The translations under genes and the position numbers were made by a program. DNA of 64,000 nt, from the NCBI RefSeq assembly GCF_000153405.2, contig NC_020802.1:1321883-1385882 (forward strand), in the 5' to 3' direction. This document shows, one piece after another, positions 2,746-24,534 of this stretch. The DNA comes from Psychromonas sp. CNPT3. Its GTDB lineage: Bacteria; Pseudomonadota; Gammaproteobacteria; Enterobacterales; Psychromonadaceae. Positions within the stretch are counted from its first letter, which is position 1. Each line of letters opens with the position of its first letter. The notes beneath the pieces were generated by a model. That model did no database searches. It saw only the letters and a program-made list of their open reading frames with translations, and had not been told where the DNA came from.

Positions 2746-4041
<1,296 letters not shown>

Positions 4042-4070
4042 TATATTAGGCGTGTTTGTCAGAACATCAT

Positions 4071-4098
4071 AAAAAAAGGAGCTTAGGCTCCTTTTTTA
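4071..4098 (+). terminator. Intrinsic terminator after serS
   Basis: GGAGC and GCTCC arms separated by a short TTAG loop, flanked by an A-run and followed by six T. It lies 30 bases after the serS stop. The A-rich 5' side means it could also serve the small minus-strand gene that ends at 4129. Confidence 0.85.
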
Positions 4099-4128
4099 TT
4101 ACTTAAAATACAGACGAAAGACAGAAAC

Positions 4129-4332
4129 TTAAGCGTCGTCGTTATAGTCACTTAAGACTAAGTTTGCCGCTGCAAAGGCCGCATCTTCACGTGTTTTATC
4201 ATCTAAGGCGCTATTGTTTGCAATGTTGTCTAATGTTTTGATAGCGCATGTTACAGCTTTAGGGATATAAGCTGCATCACCACTGCCAATTGCATTGATA
4301 AAACTTTTGGTCTTAGTGCAGTATGGGTACAT
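4129..4332 (-). CDS. Small conserved-looking protein of unknown function
   Basis: A 67-residue protein that I do not recognise. It is mostly helical in appearance and lacks a signal peptide or membrane segment. It has two cysteines (PYCTKT, VTCAIK) and an acidic tail ending DYNDDA. A good ribosome site (GAGAG, 6 bases before ATG) supports translation. It begins 39 bases after the sulA stop on the same strand with no terminator between, so it may be co-transcribed with sulA from the LexA-controlled promoter. A DNA-damage role would follow only from that position. It could equally be an independent small gene. Confidence 0.6.
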   Translation of the reverse strand: MYPYCTKTKSFINAIGSGDAAYIPKAVTCAIKTLDNIANNSALDDKTREDAAFAAANLVLSDYNDDA

Positions 4333-4371
4333 AGTAAACTCTCGATTATCTGAAAAAACCAGTATAACGCG

Positions 4372-4785
4372 TTATTGCGCGCAATAGACAAAACACTGAG
4401 TATTAGATTGGCGTGTTAATTGATTTAGCGCATCTTGAGTGCTTTTATCACAGTGATTAAGCCAAGTGACGACGGCTGCATAATTATTATTAGCAAGCAC
4501 GGTGTGAAGGAGTGACTGCGTATCGCCAATTTGCTGTTGCGTCAATGTAATGATCCGGCTTTTTGAAATGCCAGATTGCTGAAAAAAAGACAAATTAGGT
4601 TTTCCGGGAGGAGCAATAAATAAAATCCAACGCGCATCTTCACTTTCTTGAATATGTGTTAATAAATTTTGGTAATTATTCACGTTATAACTTAAATGTA
4701 CGTTACTTTTAGTTTGGGTAACGTTATCTAATTTTAAATTGTTTAAAGTGAATGGTGCGCGTTTATGCATTGCAGTAACTACCAT
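4372..4785 (-). CDS. sulA: SulA-like SOS cell-division inhibitor
   Basis: SulA sequesters FtsZ monomers and stops septation during the SOS response. The 137-residue product has the family layout: a weakly conserved N terminus, then RWILFIAPPGKPNLSFFQQSG, SRIITLTQQQIGDTQSLLHTVL and NYAAVVTWLNHCDK, which align with the E. coli SulA core. I set the start at ATG 4785, preceded by CAGGGG, rather than an upstream in-frame ATG at 4851. The LexA box at 4811-4826 would otherwise lie inside the coding region. Sequence similarity to E. coli SulA is modest, but the perfect SOS box makes the assignment strong. Confidence 0.82.
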   Translation of the reverse strand: MVVTAMHKRAPFTLNNLKLDNVTQTKSNVHLSYNVNNYQNLLTHIQESEDARWILFIAPPGKPNLSFFQQSGISKSRIITLTQQQIGDTQSLLHTVLANNNYAAVVTWLNHCDKSTQDALNQLTRQSNTQCFVYCAQ

Positions 4786-4810
4786 AATAAAACCCCTGTA
4801 AATAAAACCA

Positions 4811-4826
4811 CTGTATAAGTTAACAG
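4811..4826 (-). promoter_or_regulatory. LexA (SOS) box upstream of sulA
   Basis: CTGT-ATAAGTTA-ACAG matches the gammaproteobacterial LexA consensus CTGT-N8-ACAG exactly, with A and T flanking to give ACTGT...ACAGT. It lies 25 bases upstream of the sulA start, where LexA would block the promoter. Confidence 0.88.
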
Positions 4827-4936
4827 TACTTTTGTTTGGGATGATTTTCAACCTTTATTTTATATTTATTCAATAGGGATAGTTTTTCAGATTGAAAAGA
4901 CCAAGACGTGAATCATAATAATACTTATAGATATTA

Positions 4937-5512
4937 CTAATCATTATTCGGGGGATATCCGAGTATACGTACTTCACCACTAGGCTCAATAATAATTTCT
5001 ACTTCATTGAGTGCTTTTGATCTCTTTTGTATTTGTGAATTTTCGGGGTAAATTAGCTCTTGATTTTCTGATCCATACCATTGGTTGTGGGTATTTCTGT
5101 GTTGTTCTTGATATCGACCGGTCACAAGTAAATCCACATCAGCTTCTAATACAGGCCAGAGTTTTTGTAACTCAAGTTCTGCCTTGGTATATCCGGTATA
5201 CAACATTATTGTTAAGGATGTGTGCCGTTTTATTTTGTGGATTAACCATAGGGTGTTTTCAACTTGCTCTAGAGGCTCTCCACCTAATAGTGTGATCCCT
5301 TCAATGTCATGCTCTGCTATAATTTGAGCCAGCAGCGTTTCGCGATCCATTAATTCGTTCGCTTTAAATGACCACATTTGTTTATTCCAACAGCCTTTAC
5401 AAGCGAGCGAACATCCTTGTAGCCACACCGCAAATCGCCTGCCTGGGCCATATATATGGGTGGCAGGTTCAATGTGAGAAATATTAAACTGGGTACCGTG
5501 TGAATTCTTCAT
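4937..5512 (-). CDS. NrdG-like radical-SAM / 4Fe-4S single-cluster protein of the Ycf46-helicase cluster
   Basis: A 191-residue protein of the radical-SAM activase type. The cluster motif CxxxCxxC is intact (Cys34, Cys38, Cys41 in GCSLACKGCW). It is preceded by YGPGRRFAVW and followed by GITLLGGEPL, the SAM-binding GGEP motif, and by a YTGYTKAEL strand as in NrdG. This predicts a [4Fe-4S] cluster that reductively cleaves S-adenosylmethionine to a 5'-deoxyadenosyl radical. E. coli NrdG is 154 residues and pairs with NrdD; no nrdD lies in this window. The gene is the last of a seven-gene minus-strand run and starts one base after the stop of the DUF1257-like gene. Its substrate is unknown, but a partner in the same operon is a reasonable guess. 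Confidence 0.85.
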   Translation of the reverse strand: MKNSHGTQFNISHIEPATHIYGPGRRFAVWLQGCSLACKGCWNKQMWSFKANELMDRETLLAQIIAEHDIEGITLLGGEPLEQVENTLWLIHKIKRHTSLTIMLYTGYTKAELELQKLWPVLEADVDLLVTGRYQEQHRNTHNQWYGSENQELIYPENSQIQKRSKALNEVEIIIEPSGEVRILGYPPNND

Positions 5513-5513
5513 A

Positions 5514-6017
5514 TTATACTGATCGGGTTAGTACCAGCTGGATTTTTCCTTTGATGTTTTTTTCTTTTATGCTGTAACCTTGGGCCTTTGCTTGGGTAAT
5601 TGCCTGTAGGCGGGTCGCCGCTACTCGTTCAATTCTATCTTGTTCAATGCGTTGACGTTCAATCTCTGCAATATTATCGAGATGTACCTGATAGCAGTCT
5701 TGATAGGCACCATTCAACACGTTTAAAAAGCGGCTGACGGATTGATACTGTTTGTGCACAGAAGATACAATGCTAGTGGCTAGTTCATCCTGATCATGTT
5801 GCAGTTGCCAGACATCACCATTAAAACGAAATAGCTGTAAGCCGTTATAATCTCGTCTGTTGGTGATGATGTCGCCAATAACAACATTGGATCGCTGTCG
5901 GAAATTATTAATATTTTCAGCTGTTATTGAAACTGGCTCTGCTTTTAATGTTACTAGCGCCGAAAATAGTACCACTTCAATAGTAAAAGGGGTGGTTGTT
6001 TTGATGACTGCACTCAT
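5514..6017 (-). CDS. DUF1257/Ycf35-like protein
   Basis: A 167-residue cytoplasmic protein with no signal peptide. The middle (FRFNGDVWQLQHDQDE) resembles the central part of DUF1257 (Ycf35) proteins. The C terminus (AKAQGYSIKEKNIKGKIQLVLTR) resembles their ending, a G-[YF]-x-[VI]-x-E segment followed by a G-x-[IV]-x-L-x-L-x-R strand. It lies directly next to a DUF2997 gene and in an operon with a Ycf46-like ATPase, the genes that accompany ycf35 in cyanobacteria; this supports the call. An AAGGA ribosome site precedes ATG 6017 and overlaps the preceding stop. No catalytic motif is visible and the function is unknown. The family call comes from pattern recognition, not an alignment search. 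Confidence 0.65.
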   Translation of the reverse strand: MSAVIKTTTPFTIEVVLFSALVTLKAEPVSITAENINNFRQRSNVVIGDIITNRRDYNGLQLFRFNGDVWQLQHDQDELATSIVSSVHKQYQSVSRFLNVLNGAYQDCYQVHLDNIAEIERQRIEQDRIERVAATRLQAITQAKAQGYSIKEKNIKGKIQLVLTRSV

Positions 6018-19461: not shown

Positions 19462-20766
19462 ATGAAGTTTCCAGGACAACGTAAGTCAAAGCATTATTTC
19501 CCCGTTAACAGCCGAGATCCTTTACTCGCTCAACTTCATCCACGGCCCAAGCACGGCGCAACTTATATCGCAGGTATTGACCAAATATTAGTGGATATTG
19601 AAGCGAAAGTCAGTGATGAGCTTTTACAGCGCTACGCGTTGCCTGAAGGTAACTCAACATTGATAGATGATGCGCGGGCACATGCATTATACACTGAGCT
19701 AAATGAAAGCAATATGATCAGTGATGAATTTGCCGGCGGGACGATTGGTAATACTCTGCATAATTATTCGGTATTAGCCGACGATAAATCTGTTTTATTT
19801 GGCGCGATGAGTAAAAATATTGAAGTAGGGAGTTATTCCTATCGTTATCTTTGTGATACGTCGTCGAAAGTAGATCTCAATTATCTACAACCCGTAATGG
19901 GAGCCGTGGGCCGTTGTTTTACTTTAATTTCTGAAAGCGGTGAGCGCACCTTTGCGATTAGTAAAGGGGTGATGGATCAATTAAGCACGCAATACATCAA
20001 TAAAGAAGTCATACAAGGCGCCTCTGCTTTGATCTTAACTGCTTATTTAATGCGTACTAATAAAGGCGATACGATAACGCAAGCGACGTTAAAAGCCATT
20101 GAATATGCAAAAGAAGCGAATGTACCTGTGGTATTAACATTAGGGACACGTTTTTTAATTGAGCAAGATCCGACTTGGTGGAAAAACTTCATTAAAGAAA
20201 ACGTCACGATATTGGCAATGAATGAAGATGAAGGAGAAGCATTAACTGGCTTCCCGGATCCATTACTTGCATCGCAAGCCGCCCTTGATTTGTGTGACAT
20301 GGTATTAACCACGGCAGGGCCGTTAGGATTATATACGGCAGGTTATACAGAAGAGAGCCAAAAGCGCGAAACTACACATCCTTTATTGCCCGGACAAATC
20401 CCCGAGTTTAATCGCTATGAATTTTCACGTCCCAAGTTAAAAAGTGTCTGTGAAAATCCATTAAAAGTGTATGCGCATATTTCACCTTACATGGGTGGCC
20501 CTGAAAAAATCAGTAATACGAATGGTGCGGGTGATGCTGCGTTGGCTGCATTATTACATGATTTAGCATCAAATAGTTTCCATAAACAAAATGTGCCAGG
20601 ATCGAGTAAGCATTTAAACAATGGTATTTGTTATTCTTCTTTTTCTCAAATCTGTAAATATGCCAATCGGGTGGCTTATGAGGTATTAGCGCAACATAGT
20701 CCTCGATTATCGCGTGGATTACCAGAGCGCGAAGATAGTTTAGAAGAGTCTTACTGGGAAAGATAA
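19462..20766 (+). CDS. gsk: Inosine-guanosine kinase
   Basis: Gsk phosphorylates guanosine and inosine to GMP and IMP in purine salvage. The 434-residue length is identical to E. coli Gsk, and the sequence is very close from MKFPGQRKSKHYFPVNSRDPLL to LPEREDSLEESYW. It is a PfkB-family carbohydrate kinase: the N-terminal FAGGTIGNTLHNYSVLADD corresponds to the first signature, and NTNGAGDAALAALLHDL to the second, with the anion-hole GAGD and catalytic Asp. It stands alone upstream of the tRNA operon. Identification is secure. Confidence 0.96.
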   Translation: MKFPGQRKSKHYFPVNSRDPLLAQLHPRPKHGATYIAGIDQILVDIEAKVSDELLQRYALPEGNSTLIDDARAHALYTELNESNMISDEFAGGTIGNTLHNYSVLADDKSVLFGAMSKNIEVGSYSYRYLCDTSSKVDLNYLQPVMGAVGRCFTLISESGERTFAISKGVMDQLSTQYINKEVIQGASALILTAYLMRTNKGDTITQATLKAIEYAKEANVPVVLTLGTRFLIEQDPTWWKNFIKENVTILAMNEDEGEALTGFPDPLLASQAALDLCDMVLTTAGPLGLYTAGYTEESQKRETTHPLLPGQIPEFNRYEFSRPKLKSVCENPLKVYAHISPYMGGPEKISNTNGAGDAALAALLHDLASNSFHKQNVPGSSKHLNNGICYSSFSQICKYANRVAYEVLAQHSPRLSRGLPEREDSLEESYWER

Positions 20767-20967
20767 CAATATTTATTGATACTTTAAGCGAATGTTTTAC
20801 AAGGTTTTAACAAATAAGAGTGAAACTGATCCCCATGTTGAACTTTAAATAAGCAAAGCGTTTATTAATTATGCATACAGTAAGAAAAGTGCAAATAAGG
20901 TTTGACGTGTGGGGTTCAACTCAGTAATATTCGCCTCGTTGACAAGGCAAAGCGATTTGCTCGATGG

Positions 20968-20996
20968 CAAGTTTTAACTAACTTAGTTAAAACTTG
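20968..20996. other. Perfect 12-bp hairpin between gsk and the tRNA operon
   Basis: CAAGTTTTAACT and AGTTAAAACTTG with a 5-base loop. It is 200 bases past gsk and 70 before the first tRNA. No T-run follows, so terminator function is uncertain; it could be a gsk 3' structure or a binding site. The rest of the 299-base gap shows no gene; the tRNA promoter must be here but I could not pin it down. Confidence 0.5.
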
Positions 20997-21065
20997 TATA
21001 AGTAGTAGAATAACTTAACAATTAGTTATATTATTACTCAATATCTTTTGTTGATATGAAATATT

Positions 21066-21142
21066 CGGTGATTAGCGCAGCTTGGTAGCGCACCTGGTTT
21101 GGGACCAGGGGGTCAAAGGTTCGAATCCTTTATCACCGACCA
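21066..21142 (+). tRNA. tRNA-Pro (anticodon TGG), first copy
   Basis: A 77-base cloverleaf: acceptor CGGTGAT pairs with ATCACCG, D-arm AGCGCAGCTTGGTAGCGC, anticodon stem CCTGG/CCAGG around TTTGGGA, T-arm AAAGGTTCGAATCCTTT, and an encoded CCA. It is identical to the copy at 21502-21578. First gene of a five-tRNA group. Confidence 0.97.
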
Positions 21143-21184
21143 CATTTTTATGATATGTTTTTAATGTATCATTATCCAGGTTAT

Positions 21185-21261
21185 GCGCCCTTAGCTCAGC
21201 TGGATAGAGCAACGGCCTTCTAAGCCGTAGGCCACAGGTTCGAATCCTGTAGGGCGTACCA
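21185..21261 (+). tRNA. tRNA-Arg (anticodon TCT)
   Basis: Acceptor GCGCCCT pairs with AGGGCGT (terminal G-T), the anticodon stem ACGGC/GCCGT encloses CTTCTAA, the T-arm is ACAGGTTCGAATCCTGT, and the CCA end is encoded. It reads AGA/AGG codons. Confidence 0.96.
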
Positions 21262-21277
21262 TTATTAAAGATATTAT

Positions 21278-21354
21278 GGCGGATGTAGCTCAGTTGGTAG
21301 AGCCCCGGATTGTGATTCCGGTTGTCGCGAGTTCAAGCCTCGTCATTCGCCCCA
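21278..21354 (+). tRNA. tRNA-His (anticodon GTG)
   Basis: Acceptor GCGGATG pairs with CATTCGC, with an encoded extra G at -1 (21278) opposite C73, the identity element of tRNA-His. The anticodon loop is TTGTGAT, giving GTG. CCA is encoded. Confidence 0.96.
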
Positions 21355-21388
21355 TCTTTTTTAATGTTGTTTTAAAGTTTGAATCGTT

Positions 21389-21473
21389 GCGGAAGTGGCG
21401 GAATTGGTAGACGCGCTAGATTTAGGTTCTAGTATCGTAAGATGTGAGAGTTCAAGTCTCTCTTTCCGCACCA
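21389..21473 (+). tRNA. tRNA-Leu (anticodon TAG)
   Basis: An 85-base class II tRNA with a long variable arm (TATCGTAAGATGT). Acceptor GCGGAAG pairs with CTTTCCGC, the anticodon stem CTAGA/TCTAG encloses TTTAGGT, and CCA is encoded. It reads CUN codons. Confidence 0.96.
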
Positions 21474-21501
21474 TTTAAACTAAAGATTTACAGCAGTATC
21501 T

Positions 21502-21578
21502 CGGTGATTAGCGCAGCTTGGTAGCGCACCTGGTTTGGGACCAGGGGGTCAAAGGTTCGAATCCTTTATCACCGACCA
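21502..21578 (+). tRNA. tRNA-Pro (anticodon TGG), second copy, at the head of the 117-bp array
   Basis: Base-for-base identical to the copy at 21066-21142. The order Arg-His-Leu-Pro matches the argX-hisR-leuT-proM type operon of other gammaproteobacteria, so this is probably the ancestral copy and the first one a duplicate. Its 3' end and the terminator that follows are the apparent source of the tandem units downstream. Confidence 0.97.
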
Positions 21579-23222
21579 CATTCAACCCACTCAGCATTTA
21601 TGTTGAGTGGGTTTTTTTATACCTAAATATTTTTTACATCTAAATGACAGTGTGTATATAAAAAAGACAAAGGGGCGGATCCTTATCACCGACCACATTC
21701 AACCCACTCAACATTTATGTTGAGTGGGTTTTTTTATACCTAAATATTTTTTACATCTAAATGACAGTGTGTATATAAAAAAGACAAAGGGGCGGATCCT
21801 TATCACCGACCACATTCAACCCACTCAGCATTTATGTTGAGTGGGTTTTTTTATACCTAAATATTTTTTACATCTAAATGACAGTGTGTATATAAAAAAG
21901 ACAAAGGGGCGGATCCTTATCACCGACCACATTCAACCCACTCAACATTTATGTTGAGTGGGTTTTTTTATGCCTAAATATTTTTTACATCTAAATGACA
22001 GTGTGTATATAAAAAAGACAAAGGGGCGGATCCTTATCACCGTTCCCATTTCGCCTACTTAGCATTTATGTTGAGTGGGTTTTTTTATACCTAAATATTT
22101 TTTACATCTAAATGACAGTGTGTATATAAAAAAGACAAAGGGGCGGATCCTTATCACCGTTCCCATTTCGCCTACTTAGCATTTATGTTGAGTGGGTTTT
22201 TTTATGCCTAAATATTTTTTACATCTAAATGACAGTGTGTATATAAAAAAGACAAAGGGGCGGATCCTTATCACCGACCACATTCAACCCACTCAGCATT
22301 TATGTTGAGTGGGTTTTTTTATACCTAAATATTTTTTACATCTAAATGACAGTGTGTATATAAAAAAGACAAAGGGGCGGATCCTTATCACCGACCACAT
22401 TCAACCCACTCAGCATTTATGTTGAGTGGGTTTTTTTATACCTAAATATTTTTTACATCTAAATGACAGTGTGTATATAAAAAAGACAAAGGGGCGGATC
22501 CTTATCACCGACCCCATTTCGCCTACTTAGTATTTATGTTGAGTGGGTTTTTTTATATCTAAATATTTTTTACATCTAAATGACAGTGTGTATATAAAAA
22601 AGACAAAGGGGCGGATCCTTATCACCGACCACATTCAACCCACTCAGCATTTATGTTGAGTGGGTTTTTTATGCCTAAATATTTTTTACATCTAAATGAC
22701 AGTGTGTATATAAAAAAGACAAAGGGGCGGATCCTTTATCACCGACCACATTCAACCTACTTAGCATTTATGTTGAGTGGGTTTTTTTATGCCTAAATAT
22801 TTTTTACATCTAAATGACAGTGTGTATATAAAAAAGACAAAGGGGCGGATCCTTATCACCGACCACATTCAACCCACTCAGCATTTATGTTGAGTGGGTT
22901 TTTTTATACCTAAATATTTTTTACATCTAAATGACAGTGTGTATATAAAAAAGACAAAGGGGCGGATCCTTATCACCGTTCCCATTTCGCCTACTTAGTA
23001 TTTATGTTGAGTGAGTTTTTTTATGCCTACTTAGTATTTATGTGAGTGGTTTTTTATATCTAAATGACAGTGTGTATATAAAAAAGACAAAGGGGCGGAT
23101 CCTTATCACCGTTCCCATTTCGCCTACTTAGTATTTATGTTGAGTGGGTTTTTTTATATCTAAATGACAGTGTGTATATAAAAAAGACAAAGGGACGGAT
23201 CCTTATTACCTAGCGCATTCAG
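21579..23222 (+). repeat. Tandem array of about 14 units of 117 bp derived from a tRNA-Pro 3' end plus terminator
   Basis: The motif ACCGACCA or ACCGTTCC recurs at 21571, 21688, 21805, 21922, 22039, 22156, 22273, 22390, 22507, 22624, 22741, 22858 and 22975: exactly 117 bases apart. It then occurs at 23108 (spacing 133) and, degraded, at 23218 (110). Each unit reads: terminator hairpin with T-run; AT-rich stretch with TTTACA and TATATA or TATAAA 16-18 bases apart (promoter-like); GACAAAGGGGCGGATCC; then TTATCACCGACCACATT, a near copy of the tRNA-Pro 3' end. The promoter-like half is essentially invariant; variation is concentrated around the hairpin 5' arm. There are no unique spacers and no coding potential. 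The design recalls the rtT repeats behind E. coli tyrT, which also carry a tRNA 3' end. Confidence 0.95.
21584..21619 (+). terminator. Intrinsic terminator of the tRNA operon, first of a tandem series
   Basis: AACCCACTCAGCA and TGTTGAGTGGGTT form a 13-bp stem (one G-U) around a TTTA loop, followed by seven T. It begins six bases after the tRNA-Pro CCA. The same hairpin recurs in every 117-bp unit of the array. Confidence 0.93.
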
Positions 23223-23520
23223 CCTGCCTAGTACTTATATTAAGTGGATTTTTTAGGCTTAAATATTGAGGCCTTTTTGCTGTATATGCTTGCTATATTC
23301 AGAGCTAAAAACGATAACTATTATCTATTTTTGTCTAAAGCATTAGATGCAAAGCCTCCTTTATTTTTAAAAAATGATAAAAAAAAGCATTTATGTTAAC
23401 TGTGTAGCGTTATTTTTATTTTTTTAGCATATAATCCCTGAAAATGTAAACGTTTACATTGCATGAAAAGGTCTTTAAAAGGCATCTTTTTAAAGGAATT
23501 AAACATAAAAAGGGGTTGTC
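23223..23520. other. gal promoter region
   Basis: Begins with a decayed remnant of the array (to about 23260). A -10-like TATAAT lies at 23430-23435, followed by the operator at 23443-23460. The -35 is not clear. No gene is seen. AAGGAATTAAAC and then AAGGGGTTGTC precede galE, the latter giving its ribosome site. Confidence 0.6.
23443..23460. promoter_or_regulatory. GalR/LacI-family operator before galETKM
   Basis: AATGTAAACGTTTACATT is a perfect 18-bp palindrome. It has the GTAAACGTTTAC core of gammaproteobacterial GalR/GalS operators and lies just downstream of a TATAAT element and 60 bases before galE, so binding would block initiation. No galR gene is in the window; the nearest LacI-type regulator is rbsR. 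Confidence 0.8.
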
Positions 23521-24534
23521 ATGAAAATATTAGTCACGGGTGGATTGGGGTACATAGGTAGCTTAACCTGCATTGCGCTAATTGAAGCCGGTTTTGAGCC
23601 AATTATCGTTGATAATTTATGTAACAGTAAAGTACAAGTATTAACGCGTATTGAAGCGTTGACCGGGGTGCTTCCCATTTTTTACCAAGGTGACATTCGC
23701 GACGCCAAATTTATAAAAAGTGTTTTTAATGCTCAGAAAATAGTCTCGGTGATCCATTTTGCTGGCCTTAAATCGGTTGGAGAGTCGGTTAGTCTGCCTC
23801 TTAAATATTATGACAATAACGTTAATGGCTCTTTAGTTCTTTTTAATGCAATGCACGAAGCGGGAGTTAAAAGTGTGGTCTTTAGCTCATCGGCGACGGT
23901 TTATGGCGAGCCTGAAGTGATGCCAATTACGGAAGATACGCCAACGGGTGCAACAACCAATCCTTATGGGCGCAGTAAATATATCATTGAAGGTATGCTT
24001 CAAGACTTATTTAAAGCGCAACCGGATTGGTGTATTACTATTTTACGTTATTTTAACCCTGTTGGCGCTCATCCATCGGGCACGATGGGGGAAGATCCTC
24101 AAGGCATTCCGAATAATTTAATGCCTTTTATCGCTCAGGTTGCCGTTGGTCGTCGTGAGGTTTTATCTGTTTTTGGAGATGATTACGCCACAGAAGATGG
24201 GACAGGCGTACGCGATTACATCCATGTGATGGATTTGGCCCAAGGACATCTTGCTGCGCTTAAAGCCGTATCAACAAAGCCTGGCGTACATATCTTTAAT
24301 TTAGGCACGGGTAAAGGTTGCAGCGTTCTACAAATGATCAAAGCCTTTTCAGATGCGTGTAAAAAAGATATCGCTTATAAAATTTGCCCACGTAGAGCAG
24401 GTGACATTGCCCAGTGCTGGGCAAGTACCGATAAAGCCGAGCGCGAATTAAATTGGAAGGCAACGCGCACATTACTGGATATGACAACAGACACTTGGCA
24501 TTGGCAAGAAAAAAATCCACAGGGCTATGTTTAA
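23521..24534 (+). CDS. galE: UDP-glucose 4-epimerase
   Basis: GalE interconverts UDP-galactose and UDP-glucose in the Leloir pathway, using tightly bound NAD. The 337-residue protein has the NAD-binding GGLGYIGS at residues 7-14 and VIHFAGLKSVGESV. The catalytic Ser region is SSSATVYG and the YGRSK (Tyr-x-x-x-Lys) pair follows, with ILRYFNPVGAH after. E. coli GalE is 338 residues. First gene of galETKM, directly under the GalR-type operator. Confidence 0.96.
   Translation: MKILVTGGLGYIGSLTCIALIEAGFEPIIVDNLCNSKVQVLTRIEALTGVLPIFYQGDIRDAKFIKSVFNAQKIVSVIHFAGLKSVGESVSLPLKYYDNNVNGSLVLFNAMHEAGVKSVVFSSSATVYGEPEVMPITEDTPTGATTNPYGRSKYIIEGMLQDLFKAQPDWCITILRYFNPVGAHPSGTMGEDPQGIPNNLMPFIAQVAVGRREVLSVFGDDYATEDGTGVRDYIHVMDLAQGHLAALKAVSTKPGVHIFNLGTGKGCSVLQMIKAFSDACKKDIAYKICPRRAGDIAQCWASTDKAERELNWKATRTLLDMTTDTWHWQEKNPQGYV

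Follow-up and report, generated by a model that had tools for sequence, protein, structure and literature searches.

A terminator-bearing tandem array of tRNA-Pro 3' ends behind a tRNA operon of Psychromonas sp. CNPT3

Known counterparts and anatomy of the array

The rtT repeat of Escherichia coli has looked like an oddity. In the tyrT operon (rttR, tpr), tandem units follow straight after the last tRNA gene, and each of them opens with the 3' end of that tRNA. In strain MG1655, three exact copies of the 19-nt tRNA-Tyr 3' end lie behind tyrV in steps of 178 bp, an ncRNA, rttR, is annotated there, and our terminator scan detects no terminator in these units. Another known counterpart is the 3' external transcribed spacer (3'ETS) of tRNA transcripts, which can act as an sRNA sponge, as that of E. 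coli leuZ does.

Here we describe an array in a 64,000-nucleotide stretch of DNA (the window) from the 3.05 Mb, single-contig genome of Psychromonas sp. CNPT3. The initial annotation had likened this array to the rtT repeats of tyrT, with fewer copies in E. coli, and the comparison bears out both points, as the architecture is the same and MG1655 has three copies. Unlike rtT, the window units mostly carry terminators, repeat every 117 rather than 178 bp, comprise 14 partial units rather than three, and give no match to the Rfam RtT family. The likeliest reading of the array is a much expanded rtT counterpart that bears terminators; judged from its sequence, we would group it with rtT by architecture and not file it as a homologue. 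Like the leuZ 3'ETS, it would place RNA between CCA and a terminator behind a tRNA, but the spacer is single-copy in E. coli and multi-copy here. Among the titles and abstract openings found in the literature, none concerned such tRNA-end arrays in Psychromonas, and the accessible part of the P. ingrahamii genome paper (PMC2405808) mentions no tRNA-linked repeats.

The array follows a tRNA operon, Pro(tgg)-Arg(tct)-His(gtg)-Leu(tag)-Pro(tgg), located by ARAGORN at 21066..21578 on the + strand. The last intact tRNA-Pro (21502..21578, +) is the origin of the repeated 3' end, and the operon's own intrinsic terminator, a 13-pair stem followed by a T run, was placed by the terminator scan at 21584..21619 (+). 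When the tRNA 3' end is used as the anchor, 14 partial copies can be counted downstream on the same strand. Units 1–8 (21639..22574) measure exactly 117 bp each and start at 21639, 21756, 21873, 21990, 22107, 22224, 22341 and 22458; units 9–11 (22575..22925; starts 22575, 22691 and 22809) measure 116, 118 and 117 bp; units 12 and 13 (22926..23158) are irregular, with 133 and 100 bp; and the terminal unit 14 (23159..23269) is diverged and has lost the tRNA 3' end. The anchor-to-anchor intervals are 118, 117 (eight times), 116, 118, 117, 133 and 100 bp, and TRF reports an array of 117-bp period at 21550-23029 with 12.6 copies and 95% matches. The 117-bp period originally proposed thus holds, but the count of thirteen units at exact spacing plus two irregular ones does not, since only 9 of the 14 intervals are exactly 117 bp.

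From 5' to 3', each unit consists of an AT-rich stretch that contains TTTACA and TATATAAA, a piece of tRNA-Pro, the trailer CATTCAA, a 13-pair hairpin and a T run. The tRNA piece is indeed a near copy of the tRNA-Pro 3' end, as first described: it spans about 29 nt, differs from tRNA-Pro nt 49-77 by three substitutions and one deletion, and has an altered T arm. The motif TATCACCGACCA is intact in 8/14 units; the remaining six have a changed CCA end, which reads GTTCC in four of them and GACCC in unit 8 and is diverged in unit 14. The reported invariance of the half with the promoter-like motifs is real, in that unit positions 1-53 (TCTAAATGACAG through CACCG) are constant in units 1–13 except for one inserted T, although TTTACA itself, said to be in every unit, lies upstream of 12/14 and is missing from the last two. 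Two main unit types, A and B, differ by a patch that starts at the CCA and extends into the hairpin's left arm. Units of the two types are interspersed through the array, and unit 10 combines both as a mosaic, which indicates that the copies recombine with each other; the most diverged unit, unit 14, is the array's last.

In a comparison of the array with its own genome, the non-self matches were confined to two 33-nt stretches of tRNA-Pro and two self-complementary 30-nt stretches matching the array's other strand. ARAGORN finds no tRNA inside the array, whose units thus lack the recognisable cloverleaf of a pseudo-tRNA gene. An Rfam search of 20500-24000 with E values up to 5 returned no RtT match, and only the five tRNAs reached gathering scores. 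We also considered a protein-coding array and rejected it, the longest frame within the array being just 47 aa; the short frames in the units that might be set beside the protamine-like Tpr frame of rtT are GTG frames of 34–38 codons on the + strand and frames of mostly 35 codons on the - strand.

Terminators, RNA folds and the candidate promoter

On the tRNA strand, the scan of trailer and array detects 13 terminators, the operon's own and one in 12 of the 14 partial units, compared with 2.2 on both strands together when the region 20700-23700 is shuffled. An intrinsic terminator, as an autonomous small-RNA gene would need, is therefore found in most units and not, as had been proposed, in every one; the scanner misses those of units 12 and 14. 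In unit 12 a change in the right arm breaks one pair of the stem. The stem of unit 9 lacks a T at pair 2, and that of unit 14 combines two double changes from C-G to T-A, two one-sided changes that keep pairing, two broken pairs and one gap.

The A-type hairpin folds at -20.4 and the B-type at -15.3 kcal/mol, each beating 200/200 shuffles. Two unit RNAs were folded as well, and both beat 200/200 shuffles (z -4.7 and -3.6). The altered T arm forms a second small hairpin, longer in the B-type unit, but most of the fold excess is due to the terminator. Among six distinct changes in the left arm of the stem in units 1–13, five keep a G-U or Watson-Crick pair and the sixth loses the outermost pair, in five units. 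The chance of at least five kept changes out of six is about 0.35 when two thirds of changes are transitions and 0.02 when all changes are equally frequent, so that the pattern would lean towards upkeep at the RNA level, though not decisively.

The proposal that each unit contains a promoter fared less well. The tool's sigma-70 scan finds no site anywhere in the array. With a matrix of sigma-70 frequencies, the unit site TTTACA-18-TATAAA scores 7.1, a value attained by 7.7% of the window's 80-nt stretches, by 19% of its 160-nt stretches and by 13% of 2000 dinucleotide shuffles of the leader. The matrix separates the leaders of tRNA loci only moderately, since among the 160-nt leaders of the genome's tRNA loci (n=34) 19 score above the unit and 15 do not; the operon's own leader scores 6.5. 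In relatives, an equally good site is found in 2 of the 54 units (the near-exact 3'-end copies that lie elsewhere than in the window array), and one of the two (L066), 1.7 kb from its tRNA, is probably a chance copy. Judged by these scores, the unit promoter seems unremarkable for AT-rich DNA and a claim that it exceeds background is not supported; with 15 of the 34 tRNA leaders doing no better, it keeps some probability. Recent homogenisation alone can explain why this half of the unit is invariant.

tRNA-end copies elsewhere in the genome and the genus

Other tRNA loci of the same genome carry comparable structures. The second tRNA-Pro operon is followed by a distinct array whose seven units, spaced by about 114-133 bp, have a largely decayed tRNA end; it has eight tRNA-strand terminators of two kinds, the operon's own included, and no similarity to the window array outside the tRNA. 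Two tRNA-Met genes have three and two 3' halves downstream. Behind Val x5-Met (L094:2001-2403), three 36-nt tRNA-Met 3' halves are 97-100% identical to nt 42-77, and the part upstream of them carries an insertion in the anticodon loop. At three loci with Ile-Ala tRNA pairs, presumably parts of rRNA operons (L085, L086, L087), a partial copy of tRNA-Ile nt 41-75 lies directly upstream of tRNA-Ile. Elsewhere in this genome, a 2.65-kb segment (L067, reverse strand, 3198-5848) is flanked by 27-bp copies of the tRNA-Pro(ggg) 3' end; it contains a 359-aa frame whose motif looks HNH-like and a 202-aa frame resembling a methyltransferase (both judged by eye) and is possibly a small tRNA-site island.

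The gene downstream of the window array (23521..24534, +) is presumably galE, the first of a galE-galT-galK-galM-like run that reaches 27962. It is preceded by a perfect palindrome, TGTAAACGTTTACA (23445..23458), which we take to resemble a GalR-type operator. In a Psychromonas relative whose genome is 79% complete (G009), galE lies at 83% identity behind the same tRNA cluster, yet the distance from tRNA-Pro to galE is 534 bp as against 1942 bp in the window. At the second tRNA-Pro locus, where the downstream gene matches by eye, the next open frame is 160 bp away in G009 and 1137 bp away in the window genome. Both arrays are thus absent from this 79% complete genome at both tRNA-Pro loci with the downstream genes the same. 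What G009 has before galE is a single hairpin after the tRNA and the same palindrome; the alignment of the two loci is meaningful only as far as the first terminator.

A query bearing tRNA-Pro brought up, among the matches listed, all 24 Psychromonas genomes that we compared. We compared the stretches around most of the listed tRNA-Pro places, some of which ended at contig ends, counting as near-exact any copy of the last 12 nt that is not part of a tRNA, differs at one position at most and lies within 2.5 kb beyond tRNA-Pro. Such copies occur in 17 of the 24 genomes, the window's included, and number 63, a few of which sit within longer pseudo-tRNAs or between tRNAs. Whether relatives carry the array at the same tRNA, a check proposed at the outset, thus has a divided answer: G009 does not, and absence from a relative was part of what had been set down as counting against the original proposal, but 3'-end copies are spread through most of the genus. 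No stretch elsewhere has more than 9 near-exact copies (L068).

A hairpin and T run follow 48 of the 63 copies (the window's nine included), compared with 22 of 794 random positions, an imperfect control as many of these positions are coding. Among copies with two or three mismatches, where chance matches dominate, the figure is 6/40. A stricter hairpin search, which missed some obvious hairpins, retained 42/63 copies with 34 distinct hairpin sequences. The copies in other Psychromonas, Agarivorans, Ferrimonas and Colwellia resemble the window's in having a CATT or similar trailer and often a terminator, but their spacers and terminators are mostly different. Several relatives' units have a leader (TCAGACACCAAGCTGTCGCTT and similar) and terminator types in common with one another and not with the window, and their arrays are therefore not all independent. 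A 67-nt query taken from the non-tRNA part of the window unit matched the array itself; elsewhere among the 24 genomes it brought up no more than three weak matches, all confined to the T-rich beginning of the query.

Further kinds of tRNA fragment were seen in these stretches (coordinates with tRNA-Pro turned to +). Several Psychromonas genomes have pseudo-tRNA-Pro copies, several of them about 96 bp long, with an insert in the anticodon arm such as CTCCATGGGTTTATGAAAAGAGTT (L041:2917-3011, L055:3475-3570, L057:3051-3146 and 3229-3325, L058:2390-2565, L062 and L063), and an Agarivorans stretch (L078) has a comparable insert. Copies of tRNA-Pro nt 1-30 upstream of the intact gene form mirror-image repeats on the 5' side (L027:2331-2462, L040:2643-2772, L049:2149-2178, L063:2603-2632).

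We also surveyed 22 stretches of another Psychromonas genome (G005), leaving out about ten further loci, and found tRNA fragments or pseudo-tRNAs by its Pro, Arg, Lys, Phe, Asp, Asn, Gly and Met genes. Under a uniform 3'-end test (last 12 nt, at most one mismatch, within 1500 nt downstream), copies lie behind Pro and Met in the window genome and behind Pro, Phe, Met and Gly in G005. An array of the same type at a different tRNA lies behind Phe (L117:1969-2295, turned to +), where 2.9 tandem copies of a 113-bp repeat start in the tRNA-Phe 3' end. Behind Gly(gcc) x3 (L124:2050-2606, turned to +), four tRNA-Gly copies, all decayed, recur about every 157 bp. An earlier test in G005 (7/11 vs 0/11) had strongly suggested that fragments go with repeated tRNA genes, but this link was dropped; that test had missed known units (L035; 13/14 in the window) and merged separate clusters (L123), and the uniform test did not confirm it, giving no clear excess at clusters with a repeated anticodon either in the window genome (2/11 vs 1/27 without) or in G005 (3/11 vs 3/14).

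Beyond the genus, we scanned one genome per species (84,980 species) for two exact tRNA-Pro ends spaced 85-145 bp start to start with a T run between them. Seven stretches were returned, three from Psychromonas and one each from Ferrimonas, Agarivorans, Colwellia and the Succinivibrionaceae, the last consisting of two full tRNAs. The scan may omit the window's own genome and misses inexact or differently spaced units, and most Psychromonas arrays escaped it. No terminator was found by the terminator scan in the array of Colwellia piezophila.

Origin and possible roles of the array

The reading we prefer, at a probability of about 0.52, is that repeated tandem duplication, starting at a breakpoint in the last tRNA gene, produced the array, which most likely serves as a terminator stack in front of gal. 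A 117-bp segment reaching from the T arm of the last tRNA-Pro into the spacer past the operon terminator would have been duplicated serially, by unequal exchange or replication slippage, and with these limits each copy would have carried a tRNA 3' end, a trailer and an intrinsic terminator. The order of elements fits duplication, the intact tRNA coming first and only 3' parts with terminator and spacer after it. Recombination among the copies would have kept them alike. Some 13 terminators at the exit of the tRNA operon, its own and twelve more, could then shield the downstream gal operon, while unit RNA would come mainly from occasional read-through, trimmed near CCA|CAUU. The proposed trimming has a precedent in E. 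coli: the argX-hisR-leuT-proM precursor is a target of RNase E there, and cleavage can be promoted by a terminator hairpin in place of the neighbouring tRNA (PMC9841416). We infer the duplication origin from the anatomy; the insulating effect and the processing are inferences as well, and the function is a guess. Insulation of gal from tRNA transcription, raised in the initial annotation, is nonetheless the best functional guess.

Several observations speak against a stack. A single good terminator is normally enough, and in G009 one hairpin and the same palindrome do the work. Two of the 14 units are without a detected terminator, and five have lost the outermost pair of the stem. Nor do terminators explain why such arrays form, as none are detected in the C. 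piezophila array or in the rtT units. The loss of the link to repeated tRNA genes, which would have meant a duplication-prone setting, makes our confidence somewhat lower.

A first alternative is a neutral by-product, in which tandem duplication at unstable tRNA operons carried the terminator along and left a functionless array. The absence from G009, the near-confinement of the 67-nt unit part to this genome, the variety of fragments, 5' pieces and pseudo-tRNAs in the tRNA operons of the genus, and the terminator-less array of C. piezophila all suit such an origin, but it does not lead one to expect terminators in 12/14 units and at eight places in a different second array, or hairpins of differing sequence after 48 of 63 near-exact copies; we consider it a real possibility that falls short of the preferred reading. 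A more doubtful alternative makes the array an rtT-like or 3'ETS-like source, with read-through cut after each CCA to release terminator-bearing RNAs. It would have the same anchoring as rtT, annotated as the ncRNA rttR, and the literature, as far as its accessible parts go, treats tRNA external transcribed spacers and sponges together. Terminators in most units should keep read-through low, however, and the CCA end is altered in 6/14 units and the tRNA end largely decayed in the second array.

That every unit is an independent small-RNA gene, producing an RNA of about 74 nt that acts as a sponge, decoy or regulator, was the original proposal, and we now regard it as unlikely. The constant promoter half, the folds of the two unit RNAs and their extra T-arm hairpin accord with it, and it gained slightly in weight from the 15/34 tRNA leaders that score no better than the unit. 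Against it stand a near-background promoter score without a sigma-70 site in the tool's scan, the 52/54 units of other arrays without a promoter as good, and a fold excess owed mainly to the terminator. Scars of repeated element integration and excision at an attachment site in the tRNA 3' end are very improbable. Fragments starting near the T arm or anticodon arm, and the 2.65-kb segment with its tRNA-Pro(ggg) repeats in the same genome, recall such events, but the period is regular at 117 bp, phage and plasmid collections gave no match, and with no integrase or cargo between the units, whose frames are all short, this reading was dropped.

Returning to duplication and terminator stacking, a wider version can be put forward quite tentatively. 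In Psychromonas and nearby marine genera, tRNA operons may undergo a tRNA-directed amplification that time and again yields tRNA-half arrays, made up of 3' parts (trailer and terminator attached), 5' parts (leader attached) and pseudo-tRNAs whose anticodon arm holds an insert. Selection might then retain the terminator-bearing arrays as modules at the operon exit, where they would govern read-through and give off CCA-proximal RNAs. The array is one local form of a genus-wide repeat habit, and fourteen small-RNA genes are unlikely. With 3'-end copies in 17 of 24 genomes and behind other tRNAs, a comparison between species of how such arrays form and are used becomes possible, within the limit that some relatives share units by descent. 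The array also offers a natural test of whether stacked terminators behind a stable-RNA operon matter to a regulated neighbour.
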